NCBI RefSeq assembly: GCF_019649055.1
Contig: NW_026570222.1
Location: 806,001 to 870,000 of the forward strand
Source of the DNA: Paramacrobiotus metropolitanus
Lineage: Eukaryota; Tardigrada; Eutardigrada; Parachela; Macrobiotidae
DNA length: 64,000 bases
Direction: 5' to 3'
Shown here: piece by piece, positions 4,445 to 63,509 of the stretch
Layout of the letters: every line of letters starts with the position of its first letter
Position numbering within the stretch: position 1 is the first letter of the stretch
Program-made: the position numbers and the translations under genes
The notes under the pieces: generated by a model
What the model saw: the letters and a program-made list of their open reading frames with translations, nothing else
What the model was told of the DNA's origin: nothing
Database searches by the model: none

Positions 4445-7400
4445 TCAGTCATCCAGCTGATCCATCTTGCATTCATTCCATTTTGACACATTATTCAGTT
4501 CTGGTGGAATAAACAAGACCAGATCGGACAACGACAGGTTCCCAATCTGTCCGTCGGAAACAGATGAATTCTGCATATCAGCGGCTATCATGTTCGAAGT
4601 TGCATTTGGTCCATATGCCTGCAAAACTGCGATTACTTTCTGTTGCTCGTTAGAATATTCAGTTGTAGAGAAAATTCTTTAGTCACTGCACCTTACTTTA
4701 CAGTACGAAAAAAATTAACAAGCACCGCTTCTTGAAGTACTTTTTCGTAAACGTGAATGTCAAAAAAGTACAGTCCACACCGGCTCCATGCGTACTACCG
4801 GCAACAATAGCTGTCCAAAAAACAAATAAACTCAAAACTGATAATGCGAATTTTAAGAACCTTCACATTCGTTTAACACCCATTCTGCTAGACTTATAAG
4901 GTAAAATAATAGGACTTACATAGCCTCCAGGACGGACACCCGTGACATTCAGCAGACTCTGCACACTCCATACTACAGATCGCTTCGCGGCCAGCTCCTG
5001 TACCAAACTATCGAACTGCTGGAAAAGATTCTTTGCAGCATTCGACAAACCGATTAAGACTGATATCTTCAGCAAACTTTCGATATCTTTCATCATCACG
5101 TTTGCCTGGTTATACAGGCTCCTGATGGTATCCAGCAGTGCCAATTCTTCATATGATCCTCCTTCTCGCAGACTACGCTTCTTCTTCTCGTCTTTCCGCT
5201 TACTTTTACTGGAGCTCTTGCTCAGCTTGCTCAGTTTAGAACCACGAGAGTGGTCCGAAATGGAACTTGTCTCTGAAGCGGTATCTACGTAATCTTCTCC
5301 ACTATCCTTCTTATCTTGCTTCATTTGTCGCACAACTACTAAGCGACTCGAATATTTTTTTAAGCTGGTCTTGATCTCTTCAATTTCATGCAAAAAATCT
5401 GCATGGCACTTCTCAGCTGTCAATTTTAGGCGAGGAAATGTATCTTCCTTGACGTTCTGCCCGCTAGCTATCAATAACAGCAAATCGTCCCAGCATCTTC
5501 CTGCCAAAAACGTCTCTGTTGCTTGTACAGAATTATTCGAAAAACGTAGTAATAGATTTCCAGCTTCAGCGTGCCTGCTGTTCGATTGTAACTGCAAGGC
5601 TAACTGCTGTGCCAATTTCGATAGTCTTTCAGTCTCCCAGCCGGCACGATGGGCGCACGACATGGCCAGCTGCCAGTCCAGTGATTTTCGATACGAATCC
5701 ACTGCTTCCTCAAAAAACTGTCCTTCCTCATAAGCCACACCCGCTTCAAAGGCTCTCCGTTTTTGTTTATTTAAATACTCTCCATATAAGAATAAAATTC
5801 GACTTCTTTCACTGCTCTGCTCAGGAAATATCTGCAATGCGTCTTTGTACAAATTATGTCGCGTCATAATATCCACAAACTCTTCAAAATATTCCGGTCC
5901 CAACCTGGCCAAATGTTTTAACGCTTTGGAATAGCGCTTTAAGTGCTTATCAATCTCCAGAAACTGTCGCGCTTCAGGCTGTAGAATACGGAACTGATTC
6001 AAAAACGGAATGTACTCTTTTGGATCCTTCCGCGACTTTCCGGCCACCATTAAAACCAGTTCTAGATCGTATGTTCCGAGAGCAATATTAAACAGCTCGT
6101 TCACATCAGCGGAATACAGAATAAATTTCAATGCTTCTTCGGCCGAAATATATGGCTGACTTGCACCACGTAGATCTTTCACTCTGAAGAGGGCTGTCTC
6201 CAACTGAGAAGGTTTCTTGTATATGTCACAAGCTAAAAGGGAAATGAACATTTTTCCCAAAGGCTGGCTGCCAATAATCTTCTCCAACCGATCCAGGACG
6301 GTATTAACTTTGTTCGAGACAGAAGGCGAAGCCTGCGCAAAGTGCGCCGCGTAAGTTGTGCTCGTCACATTATCGTTGTTCAACTCAGCAATGAAGATAT
6401 TCATATTGGCCGAGTCGTTCAACTGCTCCACAAATAATTGGACATCGTTTAGGAAAGTATTTACGTTGTAATCAACGAGGAGATTCATGTCCACACGATG
6501 GCGGCGAGCTAACTCAAAACCGAGAGCATAATTCTTCTGGTTTAGAGCCTGGCATATTCGGAATATAACCAAGGCTCGTGGATGGCTGCAAACAAAAACT
6601 CATTTCGATCCTACAAAAGTAACATAACGAAAACGCAAACCCAATGAACAGAAGGACATACATTGTCTCCAGATTACCACGTGGAAGCTGTAAAATCACA
6701 TCCGTCCTGTCCGAAACCACTGTCACAAGCCGCGATCCTCGCTCCACTTCTCTTTCATCTCTTAACGCTCCAAATTTTTCGATTCCACGACGAATGGATG
6801 TCAATTTGTGATGATGTGTTGTGTACAGCAAAAAATTATGATCGACAATGAATGATGTACATGAATCGCTAATTAAATCCTCTTTCCGATACAATCGCTT
6901 AGACGCACTGTGTAATCCAAATAATTCTTCCTCAGAAACTATTTCCACTCTGTCACATGGTAAGGGAAACCTGAACAACTTGGAAACAACCGCGCCGGTC
7001 AAGTTGTCCATCAGTTTGAAGATCACACCGTTGCAAGTCGCTACAACAAAAAAATCCCCGCGCGGTATGCAATTCAGAATGGGTGCATCAAAATATGCCA
7101 GCAATCGACATGTTTTGTCTGCTTCCAGAAATTCCATTGATGACAATGATTCCAGTTCCATTTGTGATTCATGTTTCACTGAAAACACCCACAAACCCCA
7201 TAAAGGAACTCCATTTTGGTTAGCTGGTTCAACTACGGCCAACACTTGGGGACCAAACCAAAATATTCGGGGATAATTCGCAAACGGGATAACGCAAGTC
7301 TTCCGCAATATGGGTGCAGCTGTTGGATCCAAGCGGCTCGAATAAAATATCGAAACAGATTTCTTGTCCGTTACAACCGCAAGCTCATAAAAATCATGGG

Positions 7401-9191
7401 TAGAATAAAACGCCACTTGATTAATGAAGGAGTCCAAGGTCAAAAAATGGGAAGACGAAGGAGGAGGAACAATTCCGGAAGCAAAATTTGTCAATAAAAC
7501 CCTCGTTCCATCAATTACGGCAACCGTCGAGGAACTATCTTCGCTGCGACAGCAGCTCCATGTCCATTCTACTGTGGACAGACTTCCCGAATCGAGAATA
7601 TAGAGAACATATGGTTCGTGCTGACTCCAGCGAGCCGCTGCAATCTGATCCGCACCGGTGCGCGGATAGCGCAAAGTCTGTTTAGCATACCAATGATAAT
7701 TGTTCACAGTCCATAACTGAAGACAATCACAAAGGCCAGTCGGCTCATTGAGCACAATCCACACCAAAAGAATTTCGGACGTTGAGTTCCATTGCAGATC
7801 TTTCACAGCTGATTGTTGAGCAGGAAAGGGAAGAGCGAATTCGCCGTGCCGCAAACCATTCTTTTCAAAAAACTGAATGTGTCGTTGATCTGATTCGTAA
7901 ATCGAGGAAGCGATCAGAGCTCCGGAAGGTTTCCAAGCTAGGCACCATTCCAGGCCGTTAACAGGTTCACTGGTGCTCTGCAAAACTCCCTGTCTATCGT
8001 ACACGCGAATAAGCCGACTGCGGCGCAGCTCCGAAATGGATCCCACGGCAAAATACTGACCGTCGCCTCGCCAAGATATTCGTGGAATCGCATCATCTTC
8101 CCCCATTATTCCACCCGTTATCTGTATTAAAGCAAATCATTTCATATTCGTTTTGTGCTTGTTATTTACGTATCATTAACCAGAACCGACTACTAATTTC
8201 ATAAAATAAAAGACAAACTTGGGGAACACAGGTAACAAAGAAATTCTTCAAAAGAAGGAAATTACAAAAGCAGCATCTCTGTTCAGACACCACTGGACAC
8301 CACCACCACCACTGTTCAGACACCACCAAGTCCATAATACGTAGAACAGAGCGAACTTCGTGAAACTCAGTAATAGTACAACAGCATTTTCACTGTTTCA
8401 CACCCTATTCAAATTAAGTAAATAACTGCAAAATGTAAATGCCAGTTCGAGCTTGGAGTTGATAGTAACACTTTCGTTACTCACAGTGATACCACGCAAC
8501 TATTGCAACTTAAATTTCCCGGAACAAACAAAAATCAGGCAATTCATACCTGTGTTTTCGCTTTCGCAGCTTCCTTGCCTTCACTCCCATGAAACTGCGT
8601 TTCTTTCTTACCCCATCCGACAGTGACGGGCATTTGTTCCCCGAACTCCTCCGACTCCATAGGACTGGTAGAAACCGCCAGCCAGTCAGCTGTCATGACG
8701 ATCAAATGCGGTCCTCCGTGTGTATGGCGAGTGGTCAACGCTAATACTTCTTGATCCGCACTCCATTTACACGCACTGACACCCTCCGCAATGTGGCACA
8801 TAACAGACTATAACAAAATAAACACATTTTTTTATTTCACCTACAATGCTTCTAGAAGAAGCGTCCGCCAGGAGCGACGATCAAGTGACGCAAAAATACG
8901 TACCACGTCGTTCCCCCAAGAAAGCGCAATCGTTCCTTCGACTGTTGCGATAAACAACGCGGCTTCCGCGACAAGATAATCGATGTCCACAATGTGCGAA
9001 TGCTCCGGAGGGATACCAAAGACGGTTTCTTCCTCATTTCTTATGAAAACATAACCTGAATTACTGGCGGCCGCTACCGCTCCAGTGGTGTCTGAACAGA
9101 GGAACTTGGACTGATTGTCACCAGCATGCTCTGAAACAGTACCGAACGGCAACGAGCGGTGACGCTCGGAAACAAACTCTAAATTCCTCAT
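4445..9191 (-). CDS. ELP1: Elongator complex scaffold ELP1 (IKAP), five exons
   Basis: Scaffold subunit of Elongator, which makes the mcm5/ncm5 modifications on wobble uridine of tRNAs. Exons on the minus strand: 8904-9191, 8550-8807, 6662-8121, 4920-6585 and 4445-4618. The lengths sum to 3846 nt, an exact 1281-aa frame (human protein 1332 aa). The N-terminal half is the WD40 double propeller, with VGWGKKETQFHGSEGK, ISWRGDGQYFAV, SEPVNGLEWCLAWKPSG and FFEKNGLRHGEF. PRGNLET marks the shift to the alpha-solenoid half, which holds SAEEALKFILYSADVNELF, LVLMVAGKSRKDPKEYIPFL and the basic C-terminal stretch near KSKRKDEKKKRSLREGG, a tRNA-binding and dimerisation region. A small last exon supplies the conserved LFIPP tail. 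Stopping at 4863 instead would omit that tail and read through a good GTAAGT donor. Confidence 0.95.
8275..8330. repeat. Short internal duplication inside ELP1 intron 2
   Basis: The phrase ctgttcagacaccac occurs twice (near 8279 and 8312), separated by a caccaccaccac run. It is intronic low-complexity DNA. Confidence 0.6.
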
Positions 9192-20269: not shown

Positions 20270-22321
20270 TCAAAGCACGCTCTCCTTCTTTCCTTTTGCT
20301 GATCTCCCACGATACAAGCTCGTTTTCATCTTTATAGACACTCTGCAGCATAAAAACATCCATTTAAATCCAAATGGTAGATCAGTTACAGTGGTCGTAA
20401 AATTCCTAATGATATCGTACATTTTCGGAATTATTTGGCAATAACCTATTCAGTACGTAGGGGTAAGCCCCAGACACTCATAGGGTCATACCTTTTGCTT
20501 ACTGCTCAAAAACAACAAAAAGCAAAAATAAAAATTGTACAAATTGTACAAACGCCGCATACAGTTTTTGAAACAATTTAAAATACGTACGCCTGTTGCA
20601 CAATTTAAAATACTTACGCGTTATATTTCAGATCGGCAGAGCTCACTTTAAAACGTTTCGGGTTATCAATGTGACGCTTTACGGAAGTATCCTCCTGAAT
20701 GTCGAAATGGGGAGGTATATCACCTTTAAGGTCTGTAACGAGAAACAGTTACAAGATGTTCGACAATCGACAGTACTTGTAGTCATTTAAGCAACTAAAT
20801 TCAAGAATAGAATGGTTGCAAAAAATGGCTCTAGACATTCTATAAACAGTTCTTATTTTCATCAAATACATCAGCTTTAAGATTGCTTTTTCTTGTATAA
20901 ATTTTTAAAATTACTGTTACGCTCAATAAAAATTTTACCGGAGACTGTTCGTTTGCAGTTAGTTAAGTTCTACGTTACTCTTTTATGTTGGGGTCACTAT
21001 TTCTTTACTGAGCTGCGAGTATGGCCGACTCACGAGTTTCGAATCATTGTGAAACAGAATTTGAAATATTCTGAGCGTTTGGTAAAGAAAATTTAAGATC
21101 TCTTATAACACAATGTTACATCAAGGTACGAGCAATTTTTTAAGATATATTGATACGCACAAGCCTCCTTGGTGTAATGCACGGTCAGTCCCAAGCGAAT
21201 GTCATTGTTTTCGAAATCTATCGGCTTGACGGTCTTCATTGCATCTCGAATCTGCAAAAACAGTACAAACATTTACATCACGATTTCCGGTACACAACGC
21301 TTTTCAATTTTCGCAACAACTAATTGGGTGACAGACTGAAAGTAGTACCATTCCAATCGTGCGCGAGGCCATCTGCGACACTTCGGAGTCACTCAGTTTG
21401 GGCTTAACAAATTTCTGCGAGCCGAAGTCCAGTCTGCAAAGAAAACTGCTAATTAGACACTTGAACGAAGCCACGCCCGCCAAGGAAAATGTCCAACTGC
21501 CAACAGTTCCACTCCTACGTTTTGTCGAGATCCGGCACACCCCGGGATCCTGCCACCTTCGCAGTCATCTGCTTCAGCTGATCGTCATCGCGGTGTTCCA
21601 GCTCAAATCGCCATTCTTCGTACAGTTTCTGCAGAGTGCAAACCAACGCTATAACGCTTAACTTGCAATTCGATAACAAAGAGCCATTATTATCGGTGCA
21701 CTTACGTTCATATCCTGTCCGTCATGGAACTGCGGAAAGAAAAGTACAAAAACAAAGGCTCACAGACAGAAAATCGATTAAGGTGAAAAAATTTTCGCTA
21801 TGGGAAGTTTTTACCTGCAGAATTATCGCCGTGACCTAAGGACGGAATAAAGTAGGGAGGTTTTGATTTCATATCAGTAACGGATGGTCTTCAAACGCGG
21901 CTTACAAAGAACAAATTGCACGGTACCTGATGCGCGAAAATTCCTTTGAATACTTTGGACAGCATGTCCAGCAATCGGTTGACGGCCTCCTGGTAATCTT
22001 CGAATTCGCCCTTCAGGTTTTGGCGTTGCAGAGCCACCACGGTGTTTTCTAGATATTTATTACCGTAAACGTGCGTCCCAGTAAGCATCCCTGCTGACTG
22101 CGTTACCGGCACTGCTTTCGTTATGAGAGTAAAGAAGCATACTTACCGTCTCCCAGATCTGTTGACTGGAACGCATCGGCTGGAAATACGTGCCGTTCTT
22201 TCAGTATCTCAGAGATTGACCAGGCGAGAATTCTGGCGGTCACGCGAGAAGAGGTCTCTGCACTGGTCACTTCTAAAGTATTCGTCTTAGGCGGCTGAAT
22301 TACTTGCTGCTGAGTGGCCAT
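20270..22321 (-). CDS. HORMA-like domain protein, eight exons with a 24-nt microexon
   Basis: Exons on the minus strand: 22147-22321, 21927-22090, 21706-21729, 21519-21628, 21349-21433, 21161-21251, 20618-20732 and 20270-20342, exactly 278 codons plus stop with consistent phases. The order of motifs fits a HORMA fold, the peptide-capturing domain of Hop1/HORMAD, MAD2 and REV7. It has an N-terminal helix leading into HVFPADAF, the KLYEEWRFELEHRD strand (compare the Y-x-F-x-F strand), a helix around SQMASRTIGMIRDAMK, the strand DIRLGLTVHYT followed by PPHF, and a late strand VSIKMKTS. The C terminus is short and basic. The assignment rests on pattern memory, so another fold is possible. An alternative acceptor could add 7 codons to exon 2. 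Confidence 0.55.
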
Positions 22322-23230: not shown

Positions 23231-23247
23231 TTTTTTAGTTTACATTA

Positions 23248-23482
23248 TGTGCTCCTACATTATGTAGGAGCACATTGCATCGGTTTCATCGGTTCTTGTA
23301 GGAGAAAAACGGAATTGTAGTATCCAAACAAACGTAATCCAATATGCTCCTGCAATGTGCTCCTACATATGTAGGAGCACATTGCAATGTGCTCCTACAT
23401 ATATGTGCTCCTACATATGTAGGAGCACATTGCAATATTCTCCTACATAATGTAGGAGTACATTGCAGGAGCATATTGTATG
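23248..23482. repeat. Cluster of palindromic tgtgctcctacat / atgtaggagcaca units
   Basis: The 13-bp word tgtgctcctacat and its complement occur repeatedly, mostly as closed palindromes (23248-23274, then several between about 23346 and 23482), interspersed with cattgcaatg. Degenerate units (ttctcctacat, aggagtaca) lie at the right edge. It is built like a foldback or subterminal-repeat array and borders the Helitron-like element. Confidence 0.85.
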
Positions 23483-23780
23483 TGGAGATTATAAGGGGTA
23501 GGAATATAAAGTGCTGAATAGAGAATTTAATAATATAGTAAATTATATTAAGGTGATATGTTTGACGAAAAGTGATAACGAAGAAAGGGTGTACTAATCC
23601 AGTGTAGGGAAGAAAGAGTCTACATTGAACTAGGGTGAGTTTTACTGTAGTATGGTATAAATATATTCGACCTTGTGGTTGTTCGTATTTGACTGTTTAA
23701 TGAAGTGTTACAGGAAGTGGAGCGTGTTGCGGGTTGTAGATAGTGATGGATTATTGTGGAAAATTCGAGAAATTTCGAGA

Positions 23781-26143
23781 AAGTTGATTGCTTAATGGAG
23801 CAGATTATTATGTTTTGCTCTGATAGTCTTGGATGTGTAAGAACAGGTGGTTTGTATATGGAAAGTAGGTTGGTAGGTACATTAAAAGGTTGTTCGAGAA
23901 AATGTATAGTTTAATTGGTTTGTTGACTGGATTTTTTGAGTTCGGTGGGTATAAAAGAAGTTAAGGAATCTTGTGTTGGAGTTATTATGGAGTGGAGGAA
24001 GTTGAGGAATCTTGTGTTTGAGTTATCATGGAGTAGACGAAGTATATAAAGTGAGCGAAATAATTTTCTTGTTAGTTATTTTTTGGTGGCCGGTGTGGAT
24101 TTGTGGATACTTACTGATTCAGGTTGCTGTCTTTTGTTTGGCTTTGGTAAGTCTTTTTAGGTTGAGTATGGTTTAGTAAGTTTTCTTTCATACATGATTT
24201 TCGTTTAAGAATTCTTTTTTAATAAAATAATGAAAGGTGGTTGTGATCGTAAGAAGTACATGCGTGAGTATATGCGTGATTATAGAAAGAAACACAAAAT
24301 AGAAACTGATGGTAGTTGTAGCAGGGAGGACAATGTGGGGAGTGGTGATGATGTTAGATATGAGAATGTAAAAATTAAAAAACAAAAATTTAATCGGAAT
24401 ACTAAAGGTGGTGCGTTTTCTGGTATGTTTGGAACAAATTATTGGAAAAAGGTCATGGTTGCTTATGTGCCGTGCGATTGTTGCAATATTTTAGTTGCAT
24501 CTGATTTGATTGGTGATAATTCAGACATGTCACATAGTGACTAAAAGCCGATGCTAGGCTATGTGCAGGATGTATGAGTTTACATAAACATAAACATATT
24601 AATTTTTGTGATTACGATTTACGGCGGAATTGTTTAGATGTTGGTGAAGAAAATTGGTTAACTAATCTTGGTTACATGAAAGTACAGGCAGTGCGTTTAT
24701 TACAGCCTTTTTCGACAATATTGCATTTGAAAAATAATTTAACAAAATGTGTAAGGCAATTTCTTCATGTAACTAGTGATCCTAGTGAAAATTTCGAATG
24801 TTTGCTACCACGTCCGGCTACAGATTGTTTATTAGCTGTATGCCAGGCAAAAAAGAATGATTTTGATAATTGTATTCGAAAAGTCACTTATTCTGTTGAT
24901 TTTGATATCGTCTATAAGGCGCTTGATTTTTTGATTTGTAATAACATGTTTTACGGGAACTGTAAAATCCGCGATTTGAAAAATTTAGAAACCAGTGAGT
25001 CTGAAAGCAAAGTGAAAATTGATATTATGGATAGTGCAGCTTTATTAGATATGAATAATCAATAATGTTATACCCCTAAAGTATACTGAAGGTTATGAGG
25101 GTGTTTTACCTTATAATGATAATTTGTTTGGGACTGGAAATCAGAAACTGGATTGGAAGAAAAAGCGTATCCTAATTAATTTCCGTTTGGTTATGGTGGT
25201 TTAACTGATGATTGGCCTTATAGTATTTCACCTGAAAAATATTTTAAATTGCGTCTTTTAAGTGCAGACAATAAGTTTCAAAAAGATTGCTCATACGTTT
25301 TCGAGCTCTAAACCTTTATCAACGGGATCAGGTAGAACGGACGATTAATTATGTTATTAAAAATGACAATTTTTGTAAAGAGAAAGATTTAGGTAATAAA
25401 AGTGTTGCTAAGTTTTTATATCCAAAAATTGGAAAGGCTACACGAGGCAGTCAAGCATATTATAATGGTGCTGAACGACATTTTCGGAGTATGTTAATGT
25501 GTAATGGTTGTTCGGATCTTTTCTTAAGCATTACTTTACGATTTTATCCTGAATTGTTGTGTTTTGCTGACCCTGTTAAGTTTACATTTTTGTTTTTTAA
25601 CTTTATATTTTCATGTCTAACATCATCGCTACATCATTATCTTCCTTGCTATAATTACCATCAGTTTCCATTTTGCGGTTTTTTTTCTATAATCACGCAG
25701 ACACTCACGCATGTATTTCTTGCGATCACAATGAGTTTCCATTATTTTATTTAAAAAAACAATACTTAAAAGAAACTATCTATGAAAGAAAACTTACTAA
25801 ACTATACTCAACCTAAGAAGACCAAAGCCAAACAAAACACAACAACCTGAATCAGTACACTTCCGAAAATCTAAACCGGCCACCAGAAAATAACCAACAA
25901 GAAAAACATTTTCTTCACTGCATATACTTCGTCAAATCCATAATAGCTCAAACACAACGTTCCTCAACTTCTAATATACCCACTGAGCTCAAAAAATCCA
26001 GTCAACAAACCAATTAAACCAAACTTTTTCTCGAACAACCTTTTAATGTACGTCCCAGCTTACATCCTTACAAACCACCTGTTACTACACATCCAAGACT
26101 ATCAGTGCAAAACGTAATAGTTCGCCCCATTAAGCAATCAACT
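23781..26143. mobile_element. Defective Helitron-type element with inverted duplication of its 5' part
   Basis: The left arm (about 23781-24405) and right arm (about 25600-26143) are diverged reverse complements of each other. They cover a presumed 5' leader plus the first codons of an ORF (compare the codons after 24230 with the complement of 25700-25754). Between them lies a Helitron replicase N-terminal region on the plus strand, so the element is one 5' half plus a second 5' end facing it. No Rep HUH motif (H-x-H), helicase or Helitron 3' hairpin with CTRR end was found. The copy is non-autonomous. Confidence 0.75.
24230..25600 (+). pseudogene. Helitron replicase N-terminal fragment, several frame breaks
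   Basis: Pieces of one protein lie in different frames. The first, from 24230 (104 codons), has a basic start (RKKYMREYMRDYRKK) and a CDCCNILVASDL zinc-knuckle-like pair. After a stop at 24542-24544 the frame continues with a CAGC pair, then NFECLLPRPATDCLLAVCQ and DIVYKALDFLICNNMFYG, resembling the DUF6570-type region ahead of Helitron replicases. A third piece starts near 25180 with FPFGYGGLTDDWPYSISPEK. After a further break, ATRGSQAYYNGAERHFRSML and CSDLFLSITLRFYPELL match the Helitron-like N-terminal domain (RGS-x-AYW, G-x-P-x-LF-x-T). Coding stops where the inverted copy begins. It is a broken gene. Confidence 0.75.
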
Positions 26144-27710
26144 GTCTTAACTACACAAACTACTAATACACAAATTACTACTACCGAAATGACTGTGTAC
26201 TTAGAGCACGATAAAGAACAGCGAATAATGTAAATTCATGGGTTACGCCAAACAACATACTACGCCACGACACGTCACACTCTTTAAACACGTAACATGC
26301 TTTTGGCTGGCTGGTGGCTTGGTGCATGCCATATATTTTAACGAGTGTAATCGTAATTGCCTGGCGGAAGGTGGCTAGAAAACAGTCGGTGCAATAAGGG
26401 ACAATCTTACTGCGGAGCGCATTTACGCATTGTGGTAGACGTAGTGTAGTGGCCAGCGTGCTATGCGCTTACATCGCGCTTATTATGCATTAGCTGTTCT
26501 CTATCGTGCTCTAACTCCGGACCGGCTTGTAAACCTATGGAAAGTTACAGACCACACGCGCAATTTTCAAGGTCTCAACTATAGTAAAGGAACACCCACA
26601 ACATCTCATGTCCTTCATACACTCACAAAATTCTTTCCCCTACTATTATTATTCCTTTTATATACACAAATCCGAAATTATTTTAAATCCCAGTATTCCT
26701 CTTTCTTATCCCGAACCTGCCGCTATACAATCGAGAGATTGTCCACGCAGTGTATTTAAGAACATCCATGCAGCCTACTTAATTTACGAATGTCTGCCAG
26801 TATTCCGGTATTCTCTTCTCTGTATGAGCGTCAACAGAGTCGTAAAACACTCCAAATTAACGACGTCGAAATCTTCGGTAGGCATTTTATTTCACGCGAA
26901 TTGCGCTCCCTGTTTTACTTATGGCTAATATTATAATCACTCCCGAAACAGAGCAAATGCAAAATTAGAGCAGACATCCCAGGTTCTACTGCAGTTATTC
27001 AGTTCTACATGGAACCTGACAATTGTGAGACAAAATTAAAAACGTTTTCTACGCACGACGATAGCTTCCTGCATGGTAGTGCTTGTACATGTCCAAAAGT
27101 AAGTACAGTACTACCGTTTTATGTGAAGACTGAAGGTATAAAAAAATACCCTTTAATAATGTATTTTGTTGGCAAGTGCAGCAGAAGGTCACACGTACCA
27201 AACCAGGACGGATTGGTCTACTACTGAATGACAGCCTCCATTTTGGTAAATTTAAATCAACTTTTTGTTCCATGCCTACAATATTTGTTTCGCAATCGTT
27301 AAAATTTTCAGGTAATATGTAAGCAAACCGATTTGAAAATACACACAATGTACTCAAAAACTCAATAATTTTAGATAAACACAGTACAGATTTTCACAAG
27401 GGCAAAACAACAAATTTAATATCCAAAAATCTGGACTGTTCTCCATCGTTTATATTTTCTTTCGATACAACTAACATACAAACAGGCTCGAAATGAACAA
27501 TTTCTAAATCATTTCGCAAATCGTATTTGATACAAATAATTAAAAAAGAACATTCTCTGTGAAAATTCAAAATCAACTTTTGGCGCAATTATAACACAGA
27601 ACCGTAGCTGAAAGCAGCCATTAAGTGCCGGTACAGCAGCACCACATGCCGGATTGCTCTGTCCGCTAAGATCATACACCACCTAATTAAATACAAAACG
27701 CCGACAAAAT
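26144..27710. other. Intergenic
   Basis: No supported exon. The left end borders the transposon zone, and the right end contains sequence downstream of the ORP5/8 gene stop. Confidence 0.4.
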
Positions 27711-30700
27711 TCATAGAATACGCCACACAACAGCTATACAGCATGCAATGCCAAAAACAGCGGCGCTCCACAGGAAGAACTGAAATTTCTGAATGAGGGA
27801 ATCAAGTCGACATTCCAAACTGGAATGGGAAACAGTACGCTGAATGACCGGCCGCATACCTTGCAGCTCCGAAAGAATCTGGGATTGCTGCACTTGTAGG
27901 GCCTGTATCGCCGGCCAAAGGTTGCTGTCGACTAGTTTATCGGCAGTGAAAGCACGGGGAACTGTTGCACCGGATATAAGTGCCGATTTACTCGCTACAA
28001 GATATAAACTGAACTTCAGTTAATGCACTTATTGACACAAACTTTATGAAAACATATCATGATGCTAATTATTCGAAATTTTTATTAGAGCAACAAACAA
28101 CGGTACAGGTCAGATGACAACTTATGTAAAGTACTCACCATCAGTTGTCGCAGTTCACAATTTTCATTTATTTTTTTAACACTTATCTATATTTACAAGG
28201 CATCTGATAATCAGCAAGAAAATAACGTCACCTACAATCATTACGTTCCATAATTCCATCGCTGGATGTATCCGAGTCATTAGGAATATTTCTCCTTCTG
28301 GCTTTAGACCCGTGCCGCACCGCAGCTTTCGTAATCCGAATTGGCTCACTGGTCCCATCTAACACTGCCGGTTTCATTTCCATTGGAGGTCCAACTGGGA
28401 GTGGACCTTGGTGGCGTGTTTTGGTCTGGATGCAAAAATCATTTTCAAACTGATGTAGATCTAACAATGGATCCCATGGTCGAAAGCTAAAAAATCACAA
28501 ATTTTTTGAATTTAAAATCCGCACATATAGCAGTAACGCCAACATGTATCTTACTCGGCATATCGGTAGCACCATTCTCCATTTTCATCTTGAGCAAAAA
28601 GACGCGGAATCCAAGATTCTTTCTTGGCTAGGCGCTCCTTCGCTTGCTCTCGTTGGTTATCTTCTAAAAAAGTTTTCTCGTGCGTAGCTTCTAGTTGATT
28701 GTTCACGGCAAGGGCTGCCGTTACGCGGGACCATAATCTGTCGACAATGACAAATATGGAATGCAATAACGAAAAATTCACTAATCCAAGTAGGTATATC
28801 AGAAACATTTAAACTCTCGCTCAGTAATGTAGCTCTTCAACAACTATTCCTACTTCCTAGCACCACACTCACTTTTCGGATTCAAAGTCGCTTTGACGAT
28901 CAAAAGTGACAGTTAGGCGATTTAGTCTAGCTTCCGGTATCGGTTTCCAACATAGCTCCGTACTCTGTTAAACAAATTAAATTAATGATATGGGCATGCT
29001 GTGCTCTGAACTCCTCGTGTTCATGTTCTATGCGTATTCTTACTTTTAATTTCATATCCGTTACGAACATCTCTCCATCCCAACTACCCTGCAGAGTTGC
29101 CATCACTTCGTTGCCGAGTTTAATTCGGCCCTCCACCGGATTCACCGTGCGTGTCAGCCAGACAGAAAAATTTAATTCCGTTGAGTAGCCGGTCGTGGCA
29201 CATGCTATGGTCACTTTTCCGCCGAGATCCATCGATAATTTGCCAAACAGCATCCCTTTACATATCAAATGCGGCATGGTAATAATATACTCTTCCCCGC
29301 GGCTCAACAATTTCAATTTGGCGCTTCCGTCAAGGATCGCCAGAATAGAATTTCCTATAATACGCCAAATAACAAGGTACAGATGCATTAAAAGCTTTGG
29401 TTCTTCCGATTATGTGTATCGCTTACGAGACACATGCAAAAACAACTAATTCTTAGACTATTACCTTTGTATTTGGATTTGGTTAAAATAGCACCACTTA
29501 TTGTAAATCCCTCCTGTCGGTTGGAAACATAAAATGCCGATATAGGCGGATGGTGAGAGACCTTTCAAATGTACACACTTCCATATTACACAACATACCC
29601 AAATCCATATCTGCCAATTGTCGTGGCTGACAACCGCGTGCAGGCACACTTACTTGTTCAGCCACATAAAAGGTACGGGATTTCTTCTCAGGATGCTCCC
29701 ACGCGCAACGAAATACTTCTCCCAAGATAGGATTATATGGCTTTTTCACACCCTGTATTCCACGTCAACAAGACAAAATGCTAAAGGGCATGGACACTAT
29801 TAGCTCGAAATGCAGCTATCACCTTTGGCTTTTTATAAAATCCAGACAAATACCACACGACAATGCCTTTCATCCTTTCGAAAGGACTGTCATACTGAGA
29901 AGCTCTGGAACAAGTCAGAGTCAGACACGAAAACAACGACAAAGCGTCTGTGTTCAACTTTACTTGGAAAGAAGATCAGCATGGTAATAATAATCCGACA
30001 ATTTATCAAGCAGAGATCGCGGATCCAGTATAAAAGTAGGTAAAACAACCTTTGATAAGTCCATACCAGGGCGTACCTAAAACAAAGATATCATTGACAC
30101 AAACATGTCAAATTGTACATAAAGTCTCATGATGGAACAGCTGTCGCGATGCACTTACTTGTAACAAAAGATGCCAGAAAAGACTGCAATAACACCGTAA
30201 GAAATCATTAAAATTCAATTCATACCGTAGACACAAGAAACATTACCTTCGCTCTTCTTCTGGAAGCTTTTCTTCCAAACCTTTCCCGTGCTACAACAAG
30301 TTTTCATACGTTAAAACACTTTGCATGCTTGCGTAGTACGAATATCTCCATAAATAATTGTTGTGCGTAAACAACAAACCGTTGCGCGCATGACTGCAGT
30401 GCGTTAATTACGATAAAGCACTTATGCTCACCTGGCCCAGCTCTTCTTTATGGTTAAGCACGTACGATGTCTCCTGAATAGCATCTGCCAAGTAATCTTC
30501 AGCCTCGACGAACTGTTCATTATGGTTACTGCTATCGTTTCCGCTAACATTCTCTTCCTCATCGTCTTCCTCTGCAATTACAACTAATTACAGGTGCCCA
30601 TAGGAAAAACACAAATAACACGTACCTTGAGAATCAGTGTCATTCCAGTGCGATGCACCAGAGATAGGAATGGGAGATTCAGTCTGGGTAGCGCCCTCTT

Positions 30701-39386: not shown

Positions 39387-40623
39387 TCAAAACAACTTCT
39401 TTAACTTTGCTAACTCGGCTAGCTTTTCATCTCGCAGACGACGCCGCTCGTGCAAACGGCCTAAAGGAATAGTTTTCTCCATTTCCTGGCAAATAAGCTT
39501 TCCCACGTCGGTCTGGGAAGATAGTCGGGGTGTTTTGCCCAGCGTTTGTGACACGTTGAAAATCGTTTCCCCGTAGCGGTCGCAGTAATTACCGACACCC
39601 TCCGCATTCAGGTGAATCGTTTCGAAAACACCCATAAAGCGTAGCGCGGTCCGAGTCCGTCTTTCATGAGCTTGTCAATATCCTCCACACTCAGTAGCCC
39701 ATCCTGCACCATGCTCCAGCACTCGTTAATGATAGCGTACTGTATGCGATTTAGCGCGAATCCGGCGATTTCATTCCGCAGTGTGACTGGCGCCTGTCCA
39801 ATGACTTCCTGTATTTTGCGCGTTTTTGCTGTAATGTGCTCGGCTGTCCACGGCGCCGGCACTATTTCCACCAGCGGTACAAAATACGGTGGGTTTATCG
39901 GATGTGCCACCAGAACTTGTGAGCGGTGCTTTAAGTTTTCGGAAAATTTTGAGGGTGGAATACAACTGGATGAACTCGCCAGAACAATGTCGTCATCATC
40001 GACTACATCATCAATTTCGCTAAAAAGCGGAAAAAGCACCAAAAGTCAGCTGTGATCTACAAACGCAATGAGTACAAGGAATGATTCTGGCGCATGTGCG
40101 TAAAAATTTTTTTACTGTATTATATAGATAAAATTTAAAAGGCATGTATATATAGATCTATATATAGTGTTTGTTACATAATATAACATAGCGGCAAGAT
40201 ATTTCTGGTTGGTTGTACGTACTGCTGAAGTCTGAGCAACCCGTACAATCAAGTACAATAACATTATCGTTTCACCAAGACATGTACTTACCGGAAAACC
40301 TGTTGTTTTAACTCCAAAACTTCGGGTACACACTCCTGAATGTAGGTTGCGTTTAATACGCAGTCTTCCAAGGAATGCGCTTCCGTAATCAGTGCATATT
40401 GTTGGCCGACAGACAACTCCCCACGCAAAAGTCCGCGTTGCTGGAGAGTGTCGAGCTGCTCTTCGATAGCTTTCAAGGCTTTTCCAACAGCGTGACTGTC
40501 CACATCATACAGTGAGACACGGTATCCAGCCGATGCAAAAATCATCGCCCAGTTACGCCCTATTAAACCACTTCCGATGATGCCGATTTTTTCGTTAAGT
40601 ATGCTATCTGATAAAAGAGACAT
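39387..40623 (-). CDS. CRYL1: Lambda-crystallin / L-gulonate 3-dehydrogenase
   Basis: Cytosolic NAD-dependent enzyme of the 3-hydroxyacyl-CoA dehydrogenase superfamily that oxidises L-gulonate to 3-dehydro-L-gulonate. Two minus-strand exons: 40292-40623 and 39387-40019. The N terminus is a Rossmann fold with [13 protein letters not shown] (GxGxxG) and YDVD after the second strand. The central block SSSSCIPPS and [18 protein letters not shown] carries the catalytic His of the HPxNPP motif. The C-terminal helical domain has [18 protein letters not shown] and later [15 protein letters not shown]. The frame breaks at 39636-39638 within the RYAFMG equivalent. One added base gives exactly 321 aa (human 319). 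Confidence 0.92.
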
Positions 40624-41655: not shown

Positions 41656-43388
41656 TCACGACAACACAAATCCCAGAAAGACATCCGCGCATAAAAGAAA
41701 GGTGCACAGAGCAGTGATCATCTGCCCAATTCTAACCCTGTGTGGTGTCCATGCTGCTGGGAGATACTGCTTGGCAAAGAGCACGTCGAGCCAAATAGAG
41801 AAGATATGTTGTCCATCCAGCCCGACACAGGGGACGACATTCAAAATCGCCAATGCTAAGGATACGGACACAATGTATTTCAGCCAAATTTCCACAATTC
41901 CCGGCAGCCACAGCGGTAGAAGGGATTCAGCTTGGGAATAATTAGATACCCTCAGTGCGCGTAGCAAACCAGCAGCATCGCCCACAAATAGTACCGGACC
42001 TGCGGAAGTGTTGAAAAGCAGAACTCGCTCACTGGGTAGCAAATATGGCACATAACATTCTTCCGCTGGCCACATCCGACACTCCAGAGATACGTTGCAC
42101 CGCTGTTTGTATCGCACTTTTTCTACCTGTATGATAAATCGTCCACAATCATATTAAAGAAATGGAACAACAGTAACTAGCATACTAACCTGAAGACACT
42201 CCGGGGATATGCTTCGCGTTTGGTTGGAGTAATCCGCAATCTTGGTTTGCATATAAAAGCACAGAGATGACGAAGTATTCCGGCAACACTCTAGCACTGT
42301 AGAATTTTCCGTATGGAAAGATTCGCTGGGTGTCTGCTTGTATTTCACAGGCGGAATGAAATCTCCGCGCGCACTCTTAATTGCTTCAGCGCTTAAGCAG
42401 AAACCACCTTTGTTGTAAGCAACGGCACAACGTTCCAGGGCGCGGCTATTGTTTGCACTACACTGATTGATGCTGTAGATTTCCATACCCACATGGAATG
42501 GAATACTGTGATTCGCCAAAGCAGCATGGGAATCTAGCACCGCTGTGACGGTTACGCCGCGCCCGGAAGTGTACATCAAACCGGTCAGAATCGGCATGCT
42601 CCATAAAAATGTTCCAGCAATTGTCGCCAAAACGAGATTATGCCAAACTCCGGCGGCCATAATTCTTAGCTGACGAGATAAAGCTTGTGAATCCAGATTT
42701 TTTACTACAACGAATGCTGCGGGAAAAATACCCAAGACAGCCACTCCCATACCTCCCACTTCGGTCAGTTCGGATGCGGATGAAATGCCGTGACCCATTT
42801 CGTGAACAACAGTGCTCAGTAGGACGGAACAGAAAAACGGCACAATATGGGATAACGGCAAATTAATACCGGGAATAATGGGCATCAGGCTGGGACCGCC
42901 AGCTGATATACTAGCAGCAGTAGTCTGTAGAGAATCAGCGGTCAACATAAGATGGCAACGGCAGGGCAAATAATCATCTAATAATCTAATCTTACCGTGT
43001 AAAAAGCAGAGTTGCTTATAGTTGATGATCCTGGTGTTAGCACAGGACTAACAGGAGTTGGTGCATAATGCATAGCGTGAGCTTGGTGATAATTGTGCCA
43101 AATACGAAAGGAATGGGAAAGAAATAAATACAATAGAAAAAGTACGGCCGGCAAGATCAGGATGGAAGATAACAAAGCGCCACAAACAAACCACACTCGC
43201 CACAGACGCACAATACGACTCCATGCGCCCAGACGTTGCAGCGGCCTGTTCAAATGCTGGAATGTCAAATACAAGCGGCCAAAAGAGACCTGAATGGCTC
43301 CGGTGCGGACCTGCTGCTCGTACCAGTGGAAGTGACGGCAACACCACCTATGTAACACAATGACCACCAACCTAAAGGGAAACAACAT
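41656..43388 (-). CDS. MBTPS2: Membrane-bound transcription factor site-2 protease (S2P)
   Basis: Intramembrane zinc metalloprotease of the Golgi that makes the second cut releasing SREBP and ATF6. Exons on the minus strand: 42996-43388, 42190-42924 and 41656-42126, a closed frame of 532 aa (human 519). The catalytic HExxH motif is VVHEMGHGISS in the second exon. The second metal ligand motif, NVVPCVGLDGQHIF (N-x-x-P-x-x-x-LDG), is in the last exon between hydrophobic helices. IPGINLPLSHIVPFF and LRIMAAGVWHNLVLA are also conserved. The cysteine-containing luminal loop between the two motifs is present (CCRNTSSSLCF). The vertebrate serine-rich linker is replaced by a short one. The start chosen gives an N terminus running directly into the first membrane span. 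Confidence 0.95.
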
Positions 43389-60697: not shown

Positions 60698-63509
60698 ATG
60701 GCCGGAAGAATGCCTGCATGCGTTATCGACTGTGGAACGGGGTGCGTGTGCGACTGTGCATTGAGATAGTCGATAGCGTTTACAACTTCTTGATGAACGT
60801 TTTTCTTAGATATTCCAAGCTGGGGTATGCTGGAAATACCGAGCCACAGTTCATTATTCCATCGGGTAAGAAGCTGTCCGTAGCCTGTTGTGAGGGTTCC
60901 TCCCCCTTTAATTCTGTATGGTCCATTGCTTGTTGTGGTTTCCGACGCGCTCCGATTATTGCCTTTCTCTTTGTGTGCAATTAAAATCAATCCGATTCAC
61001 TGTTGAGCTTAAAAATGTTCGTTCTTAGCGATTGCCATCAAGGAGAGCGCAAAAGTAGGCGATCAGTCGCAGCGACGATTGGGACGCGGAGTGGAAGATC
61101 TGGACTTCTTCATCGGAGATGAAGCGCTGGAGCAGCCTTCGTACGCCGTCAAAGTCAGTGTCTCTGCAGGCTCTTTAATGGTAATATCAAGCGCTCTTTG
61201 AAAAATCGAATATTTTACAGTGGCCCATTCGGCATGGTATCGTTGATGACTGGGATCTTATGGAGCGATTTTACGAGCAATGCATTTTCAAATATCTCCG
61301 ATGTGAACCAGAAGATCACTATATGTTCCTGGTTAGTGCCTTTTAAGATACTTACTTAGTAAGATATCCGTATATGTAAAAAATTGACAGTTGTCGCGAA
61401 AGCGCTCGTTTGATTTGATACATTAATGGAAGGTAGCTCTTGCTTCAGCAATATTTTCGTAGTAGGCTGTTAATAAGTATCACGATACAAGTACAAACAT
61501 GGTACCAATGTAAAACAGATTTTAAAACAAACACTTCCTCTATGCTTGCGACACACTTGCGATTCTTGCAGACGTCGTCGCTAAGACATGTTTGGTTTTG
61601 ATTTACAGTAATTTGGAAATTCGTTGTGGTATTGTTTTATTTACGTGGTATATAATTTTTTTTCCACAGACGGAACCGCCGTTAAACACTCCAGAAAATC
61701 GAGAATTCACTGCTGAAATTATGTTCGAGACGTTTAATGTTCCGGGATTATACATCGCTGTTCAGGCAGTTTTGGCTTTGGCTGCTTCTTGGCTATCGCG
61801 TCCTGTTGGTGAACGCACACTGACTGGAGTTGTTGTGGACAGTGGCGATGGAGTTACTCATGTTATTCCTGTGGTATGTTTTAAAAAAAAAGTATTGTGC
61901 ATTCCTTAGGTAGAGTTCGGAAAGATAATGAATTTCAGAGTTTGAATGAATGAAACAAAATCGTCTGATATGATCCTTCTATACGTACGGATTGTCTTGC
62001 TGGCAGTGTTTGGAATGTGTTTTTTTACATATAATTTTACTTACTGGGTTAAAAAAAGATTGGCAGAAGAAAGTAAGGAAGGCAAATAGGTTTTTTCTAA
62101 GTTGTAATTTAGTAAATTCTGGATCGTGTGCAGGCGGAAGGCTATGTTATCGGCAGCTGCATCAAGCACATTCCGATAGCTGGCCGGGACATAACGTATT
62201 TCATTCAGTCTTTACTTCGAGAGCGGGAAACTAAAATTCCTCCCGAGCAGAGCATGGAAACTGCAAAAGCTATAAAGGTGCGTGACGATGGTATTCTGTT
62301 GAGAATTATGCTGCTTTGGAAATGTGCTGGAAATAATATCGTTTGATTTTCAGGAGCGCTATTCGTACATTTGTCCTGACATTGCTAAGGAGTTTGCGAA
62401 GTATGATCAGGAACCGTCTAAATGGATCAAACAGTACGACGGAGTGAATAGTATCACGAAGCAGCCTTTTTCTGTTGATGTGGGATATGAACGGTTTTTG
62501 GGTCCAGAAATCTTTTTCCATCCAGAGGTAACTTTTCGGCATTCTTGCTGGGACCATGGATTCACTGCCTTATTCGTGTTCTAGTTTGCCAATCCCGATT
62601 TTAACACCCCGATTTCTGAAGTAGTGGACGACGTCATTCAAAATTGTCCGATTGATGTTCGCCGGCCATTATACAAAGTACGGTTTCTGCTTTACGTGGA
62701 CTAAGGGAGATTTTTTTCCGCATAGTTCTTGCTTAAGGTGGTGCTTCCTTTCAGAATATCGTTTTATCGGGCGGTTCAACCATGTTTCGCGATTTCGGTC
62801 GTCGCATGCAGCGGGACATTAAACGCAATGTCGATTTACGGTTGAATTTGAGTGCGCAGCTGAGCGGCGGAAGGATAACGGTAAAATGCTTACAATGCTT
62901 TATCCAGACGATACTGATCGAATTTTTTCGGCTTTCAGCCTAAACCCATTGACGTTCAAGTCATTAGTCACCAGATGCAACGATACGCTGTGTGGTTCGG
63001 TGGTAGTATGCTGGCCTCAACGGTACGTTTAACTAACGACAACATATTATTATCTTCTGGTATATACCGGTAATTGCTTTATGTAATTTTGTCTTTTTTC
63101 CTTTATTCCTGTGATGCAGTGGCATTCGTGTTTTTCTTGAGACATTGTTAATGCTTTTGTGGTGCATTTTCGAATGATTCATTTGCTCACACAACCTAAG
63201 ATTTTTGTAGTCTACGTATGTAATTCATTACGTATTTATTCTTCATACTCCAAGTAATTATTTTATATTAAGTGCAGCCAGATACTAAGCTGTTTTTGCA
63301 AATCTTTATGACCAATCGGACGTAATGTTTTGCGGCTTCTGTTGAATGATTGATATTTATTTAGTACGAGTACAAGGCACTGAAATTGCAGTTCTGAGTG
63401 TTACGTTTTGTAGCCTGAGTTTTATCAAGTCAGCCATACAAAAGCGGATTACGAGGAATATGGCCCGAGCATTTGCCGTCACAACCCAGTGTTTGGAGTG
63501 ATGTCATGA
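60698..63509 (+). CDS. ACTR3: Actin-related protein 3 of the Arp2/3 complex, eleven exons
   Basis: ATP-binding subunit of Arp2/3, which nucleates branched actin. Exons on the plus strand: 60698-60741, 60810-60865, 61029-61153, 61221-61331, 61670-61873, 62134-62277, 62354-62527, 62585-62677, 62755-62880, 62939-63022 and 63414-63509, summing to 418 aa, the same length as human ARP3. The nucleotide-binding phosphate loops are ACVIDCGTG and [57 protein letters not shown] and [12 protein letters not shown] are near-invariant. The end HNPVFGVMS matches the family exactly. One local departure is [12 protein letters not shown], where most ARP3 proteins have RVMKGVDDLDFF. No frame break was found in this gene. 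Confidence 0.97.

Follow-up and report, generated by a model that had tools for sequence, protein, structure and literature searches.

Helitrons of Caenorhabditis are reported to carry heat-shock elements that respond to HSF-1 (PMC6927752). Helitron-like ends in an inverted arrangement are found in maize Heltirs, whose repeats are reported to resemble Helitron 3' termini (PMC3422177). Inverted terminal sequence also occurs in Helitron2-like elements such as FoHeli of Fusarium, where it is described as short, asymmetric repeats of 12 or 13–16 bp (PMC5148889). The maize locus Mu killer, which derives from Mutator and not from a Helitron, combines two copies of one element end with a partial, inverted transposase gene and was proposed to act via a hairpin RNA (PMC3440606). 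AAV 5' snapback genomes, which are viral replication products, are reported to hold the promoter and part of rep in a snapback arrangement (PMC8235507).

The locus presented here lies in the window, by which we mean the whole 64-kb stretch of DNA that was analysed. With Caenorhabditis-type Helitrons it shares heat-shock-element units in the 5' region, and with Helitrons in general a replicase N-terminal domain, which in one comparison locus (L020) is found upstream of the HUH part. It differs from Helitrons in having two inverted 5' ends; the HUH nuclease, the helicase and the 3' end were not found in the window. Its repeats are 5' ends of about 600 bp, unlike the 3'-like repeats of Heltirs and the short repeats of FoHeli. 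Its arms are 14% diverged, in contrast to those of Mu killer; and they are old, diverged and chromosomal, unlike AAV replication products. The titles and abstract openings of the papers listed in literature searches, a scope with few papers of subscription journals, yielded no precedent for head-to-head 5' Helitron ends.

Architecture of the locus

The sequence from 23778 to 24393 matches the reverse complement of 25582–26147 at 77.9% identity over 620 columns (blastn, E 1e-147). The local alignment score of the two arms is 365, compared with a maximum of 67.5 across 200 base shuffles of one side. A global alignment places identical bases in 484 of 561 ungapped columns (86%), with 77 differences and a further 60 gap columns; the Jukes–Cantor distance over the ungapped columns is 0.15. 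Each arm comprises about 450 bp of leader followed by the beginning of a coding region, which in the left arm accounts for 164 bp; an unpaired loop of 1188 bp separates the arms. Used as separate blastn queries, the left, middle and right parts found no additional match in the 64-kb window at E 0.01. The positions of the features are collected in Table 1.

Table 1. Features of the locus in window coordinates, with the observation on which each rests.
Feature	Position	Strand	Basis
Leader-like G-over-C extension outside the left arm	23452–23777	+	Skew scan; right-side homologue not found
Run of five adjoining heat-shock-element units (GAAnnTTCnnGAAnnTTCnnGAA) across the left arm's outer edge	23759–23781	+	Pattern scan, shuffles
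Left arm: Helitron-type leader and first 164 bp of coding sequence, reading inward	23778–24393	+	Inverted match to 25582–26147
Broken replicase N-terminal coding region	24230–25581	+	Translations; HUH and helicase not found
DUF6570 (PF20209) segment	24541–25062	+	hmmscan E 1.2e-5, 26.2 bits against a cut-off of 24.3
Segment resembling the pre-HUH part of Helitron Rep, ending at the junction	25302–25581	+	Weak match to L020, E 0.074
Junction: left coding copy stops, inverted right arm starts	25575–25590		Start of blastn match; shift in GC skew
Right arm: inverted copy of leader and coding start, more lesioned	25582–26147	-	Inverted match; about three frame changes
Small MITE-like inverted-repeat element just outside the right arm, TA flanks on both sides	26204–26511		Arms 26201–26226 and 26489–26514, 92%
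Possible mirrored C-rich outer segment past the MITE	26593–26732	-	Marginal skew evidence

This arrangement had been proposed from the letters alone, and part of that sequence-only reading stands. Inverted, diverged arms of about 550–620 bp around a replicase start were borne out by blastn and the shuffle test, and the inverted match of both leader and coding start supports the idea of two 5' ends facing each other. The junction, which had been put near 25600, is now placed at about 25581, and the edges at 23778 and 26147 proved sharp. The label 'first exon' did not hold: we saw nothing that points to an intron, and the frame changes resemble mutations.

The junction is also marked by base composition, the GC skew passing from 0.45 (25461–25520) through 0 (25521–25580) to -0.54 (25581–25640). 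A chimeric inverted read was considered as a source of the arrangement and rejected: such an assembly artefact is expected to leave near-identical arms, and the mismatched and gapped columns counted above are incompatible with it.

The left leader contains a TATA box at 24043. It also holds a 41-bp tandem duplication (23957–24038, units 88% alike), to which the right arm offers a match of about one unit.

The replicase fragment and its relationship to Helitrons

The left coding copy starts at an ATG at 24230, and its first frame stays open for 104 codons (24230–24541). By a hand count from the translations it extends to about 25581 with some five lesions. The segments that are open or nearly so are 24230–24541, 24541–25062, about 25159–25310 (with one internal stop) and 25302–25581. 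The right copy starts at the ATG whose complement lies at 25742 and, by hand reading of its translations, changes frame about three times over the part homologous to the left copy.

The second open segment matches DUF6570 above the Pfam cut-off. When the segments are joined into one read-through with X at the breaks, the domain scores 23.3 bits, slightly under the cut-off of 24.3. The segment that follows DUF6570 has no Pfam match. For comparison, sequence loci were collected with an HUH motif pattern, which returned four viral and 15 prokaryote-genome stretches; 14 of the 19 were translated, the remaining stretches being L006, L008, L010, L018 and L019. Five of them, all from genome records (L007, L009, L011, L014 and L016), contain Helitron HUH sequence as judged by eye. 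The four genomes behind these five loci contain DUF6570 in two places, both in a single genome and one of them in L020; the domain was found in none of 14 control genomes. In L020, DUF6570 lies upstream and an HUH motif, read by eye, lies downstream in another frame.

Among the window's open reading frames of at least 30 aa, the one at 25275–25751 ranks first against the Rep part of L020, weakly (E 0.074), and its alignment continues past the junction into the right arm. As placed by eye against L020, the left coding copy would end some tens of residues short of the position of the HUH motif. Because of the Pfam match to DUF6570, the association of that domain with a Rep in L020 and this second, weak match, we assign the locus to the Helitrons; its predicted product is a Helitron-type replicase N-terminal domain. 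The proposal of a Helitron-type replicase start is thus upheld by the DUF6570 score above the Pfam cut-off and by the domain order of L020.

Other comparisons returned less. The replicase read-through had no tblastn match at E 10 in the 19 fetched loci. The DUF6570 sequences of L020 and L021, used singly, did not recover the window's DUF6570 ORF; a two-sequence profile of both ranked it second at a non-significant E of 0.76. A profile built from the five HUH loci, which belong to another clade, did not match the window replicase.

No HUH Rep nuclease was matched when the window ORFs of at least 30 aa were compared with the Rep part of L020 or with the five-Helitron profile; that profile also missed the window's own replicase. 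Pfam was run on all 53 window ORFs of at least 120 aa and on some of the shorter broken pieces; it returned neither Helitron_like_N nor any family of Helitron Rep or helicase. Thirty ORFs of seven Helitron-bearing loci, whose helicase content was unchecked, gave nothing below E 0.15 against the window. Under strict criteria, which asked for CTRR preceded by a GC-rich hairpin, no Helitron 3' end was found in the 64 kb. The sequence-only reading had named a full-length parent with an insertion at 25600 as the case that would count against it; this was not seen, the scans above having found no HUH, no helicase and no strict 3' end.

The sequence to the right of the element was considered as the place of a Helitron remainder and rejected: of eight ORFs there, seven of which lie no more than about 2.3 kb from the right arm, none has a relevant Pfam match.

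Edges and flanking sequence

Homology between the arms stops abruptly at 23778 and 26147. The flanks beyond them do not align in any of three pairings (P 0.69 with 1000 shuffles; P 0.125 and 0.885 with 200 shuffles each), and the outer parts remain unaligned when the MITE is cut out (P 0.24, 500 shuffles). Among 3191 segments, each 180 bp long and offset by 20 bp from the last, those with a GC skew of at least 0.5 in either direction all fall at this locus. The G-rich segment on the left starts at about 23452 with weights k=1.5 and k=2 and at 21726 with k=1, its left limit thus varying with the weight chosen. The C-rich segment on the right exceeds the best C-rich segment elsewhere by 35 to 33 at k=1.5 and by 32 to 24 at k=2; at k=1 it does not stand out.

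No target duplication was found where the arms end: exact words of at least 5 bp are limited to AAATT, which sits 25 bp beyond the right edge. The outer limits of the skew share one 6-bp word, GAGATT. Helitrons have TC at the 5' end and insert at AT; here a TC at 23775, near the left edge, is preceded by T, and the right edge differs. Conservation does not rise toward the arm ends (P 0.41), and on this ground constrained, true transposon termini were rejected for these positions.

A palindromic repeat array with a unit like ATGTAGGAGCACATTGCA occupies 23247–23481 and ends about where the G-rich skew starts.

A run of heat-shock-element units at the left edge

The five-unit run at the left edge is the only run of at least three units in 64 kb. 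In 100 shuffles the longest run was of four units and occurred once, while runs of three were common. A four-unit pattern has one match in the window and none in 100 shuffles; with one mismatch allowed it has two matches, a number attained in 4 of 100 shuffles. These counts describe a run that was noticed post hoc and is defined by its sequence pattern. A right-side counterpart of the five-unit run was not found. Within the arms, a two-unit site is common to both (23893 and 26028).

Divergence of the arms and origin of the arrangement

In the coding part that the arms share, their differences are distributed 8/8/8 over the three codon positions, and divergence is similar in non-coding (53/403) and coding (24/158) columns. 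For lineages under selection we assumed a third-position share of 60%, and the counts reject it (P 0.0075). The divergence looks neutral: the arms have diverged mostly without selection, and the even codon-position pattern rules out two lineages under selection as its source. Given this pattern, arm divergence is no guide to whether the locus began as two related elements or as one old inverted duplication. The claim that the arms differ enough to be two elements instead of one duplication is therefore unsupported, the pattern fitting decay after the arrangement had formed. The right arm carries three of eight lesions on 164 of 1516 coding bp, more than the rate in the left copy predicts, which gives a borderline hint (P 0.047, with frame changes counted by hand) that it is older or decaying faster.

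To the reading that the locus is a dead relic, in which two related Helitron-type 5' ends were joined head to head and then decayed, we give slightly better than an even chance. The left fragment would have retained the leader, promoter-like sequence and replicase start, and the right fragment the leader and coding start in inverted orientation. Both would have been cut at a single junction near 25581, most simply by deletion or end-joining between converging copies; after joining, decay without selection would have followed, with a small MITE just outside the right arm. We infer this order of events, as well as the loss of mobility. A single template-switch event would also leave one junction, which counts against the relic of two copies, as do the unmatched Helitron_like_N domain and the failure of the five-Helitron profile from another clade to match the replicase. 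Such a switch is the core of a rather unlikely alternative, a snapback, in which the nascent strand of a single Helitron under replication jumped to the opposite strand as template and was extended back to the 5' end, so that one event would produce the leader, the rep start and the inverted leader. The single junction, the outer ends that are both 5' ends and the unpaired loop agree with it; neutral divergence is compatible with one old event; and AAV provides a parallel in its reported 5' snapback genomes with promoter and partial rep (PMC8235507). It is at odds with the excess of lesions in the right arm and with the edges, where homology stops although the leader-like skew continues at least leftward. 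Two related copies are favoured because homology ends abruptly while the skew runs on outward, clearly on the left and marginally on the right. If a snapback were the whole story, homology should extend on both sides as far as a common 5' end; the edge pattern therefore leans toward two copies.

If the relic of two joined copies is set aside, the locus could belong to a non-autonomous family, of foldback or Heltir-like type, whose members, each with two 5' ends, are moved as a whole by the replicase of full Helitrons. Helraiser is reported to need its left end and not strictly its right (PMC4778049), so that two left ends in one element would not be mechanically absurd, and maize Heltirs offer inverted repeats, though of a kind said to resemble Helitron 3' termini (PMC3422177). 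We nevertheless regard such a family as very improbable, since the window holds a single copy, the arm edges are without a target duplication (apart from the GAGATT word at the outer skew edges), the arm ends are conserved no better than the interior and relatives were not found in viral contigs. Scarcely less doubtful is a hairpin-RNA locus, in which a long foldback RNA of leader and rep could silence intact Helitrons in the manner proposed for Mu killer; this reading is compatible with relic status. In a predicted transcript of 24075–26147, folding is predicted to pair 283 of 319 left-arm bases to the right arm, in a long hairpin with an energy of -648 kcal/mol; five controls whose right arm was shuffled range from -417 to -434. 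Any comparable inverted repeat would fold in this way, however, and the locus is without a sign of selection. In the arm alignment, moreover, the right arm reads TATATGCAG at the position where the left arm reads TATATAAAG, and Mu killer too has been given an alternative model that does without a large hairpin (PMC3440606). That the two-5'-end derivative might be a heat-inducible source of hairpin RNA, driven by the heat-shock element at the left edge and silencing its own family, strikes us as a long shot; it would then be an animal, rolling-circle counterpart of Mu killer. The arrangement is real and somewhat unusual, and it is probably inert.

Even if the locus is only a relic, it documents head-to-head Helitron 5' ends and is informative on how such elements break. 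If it were recurrent or hairpin-producing, Helitrons could give rise to inverted derivatives that move or silence their parents, and recurrence or hairpin RNA would also tie the heat response of Helitrons to self-silencing.

Other sequences searched and neighbouring genes

No relative was confirmed in viral contigs: one search gave three pattern stretches and two others, one of them with a stricter HUH pattern, gave none. Phage records contained no match, and neither did solved structures. The Helitron sequence in L007, L009, L011, L014, L016, L020 and L021, all labelled bacterial, is probably eukaryote contamination.

Elsewhere in the window there are pieces of host genes, of which the Wnt piece suggests that the host is an animal; they belong to the Wnt, ELP1, oxysterol-binding protein, 3-hydroxyacyl-CoA dehydrogenase, peptidase M50 and actin families, at 1186–1605, 4863–8136, 28927–29409, 39608–40045, 41656–43047 and 61526–61909.
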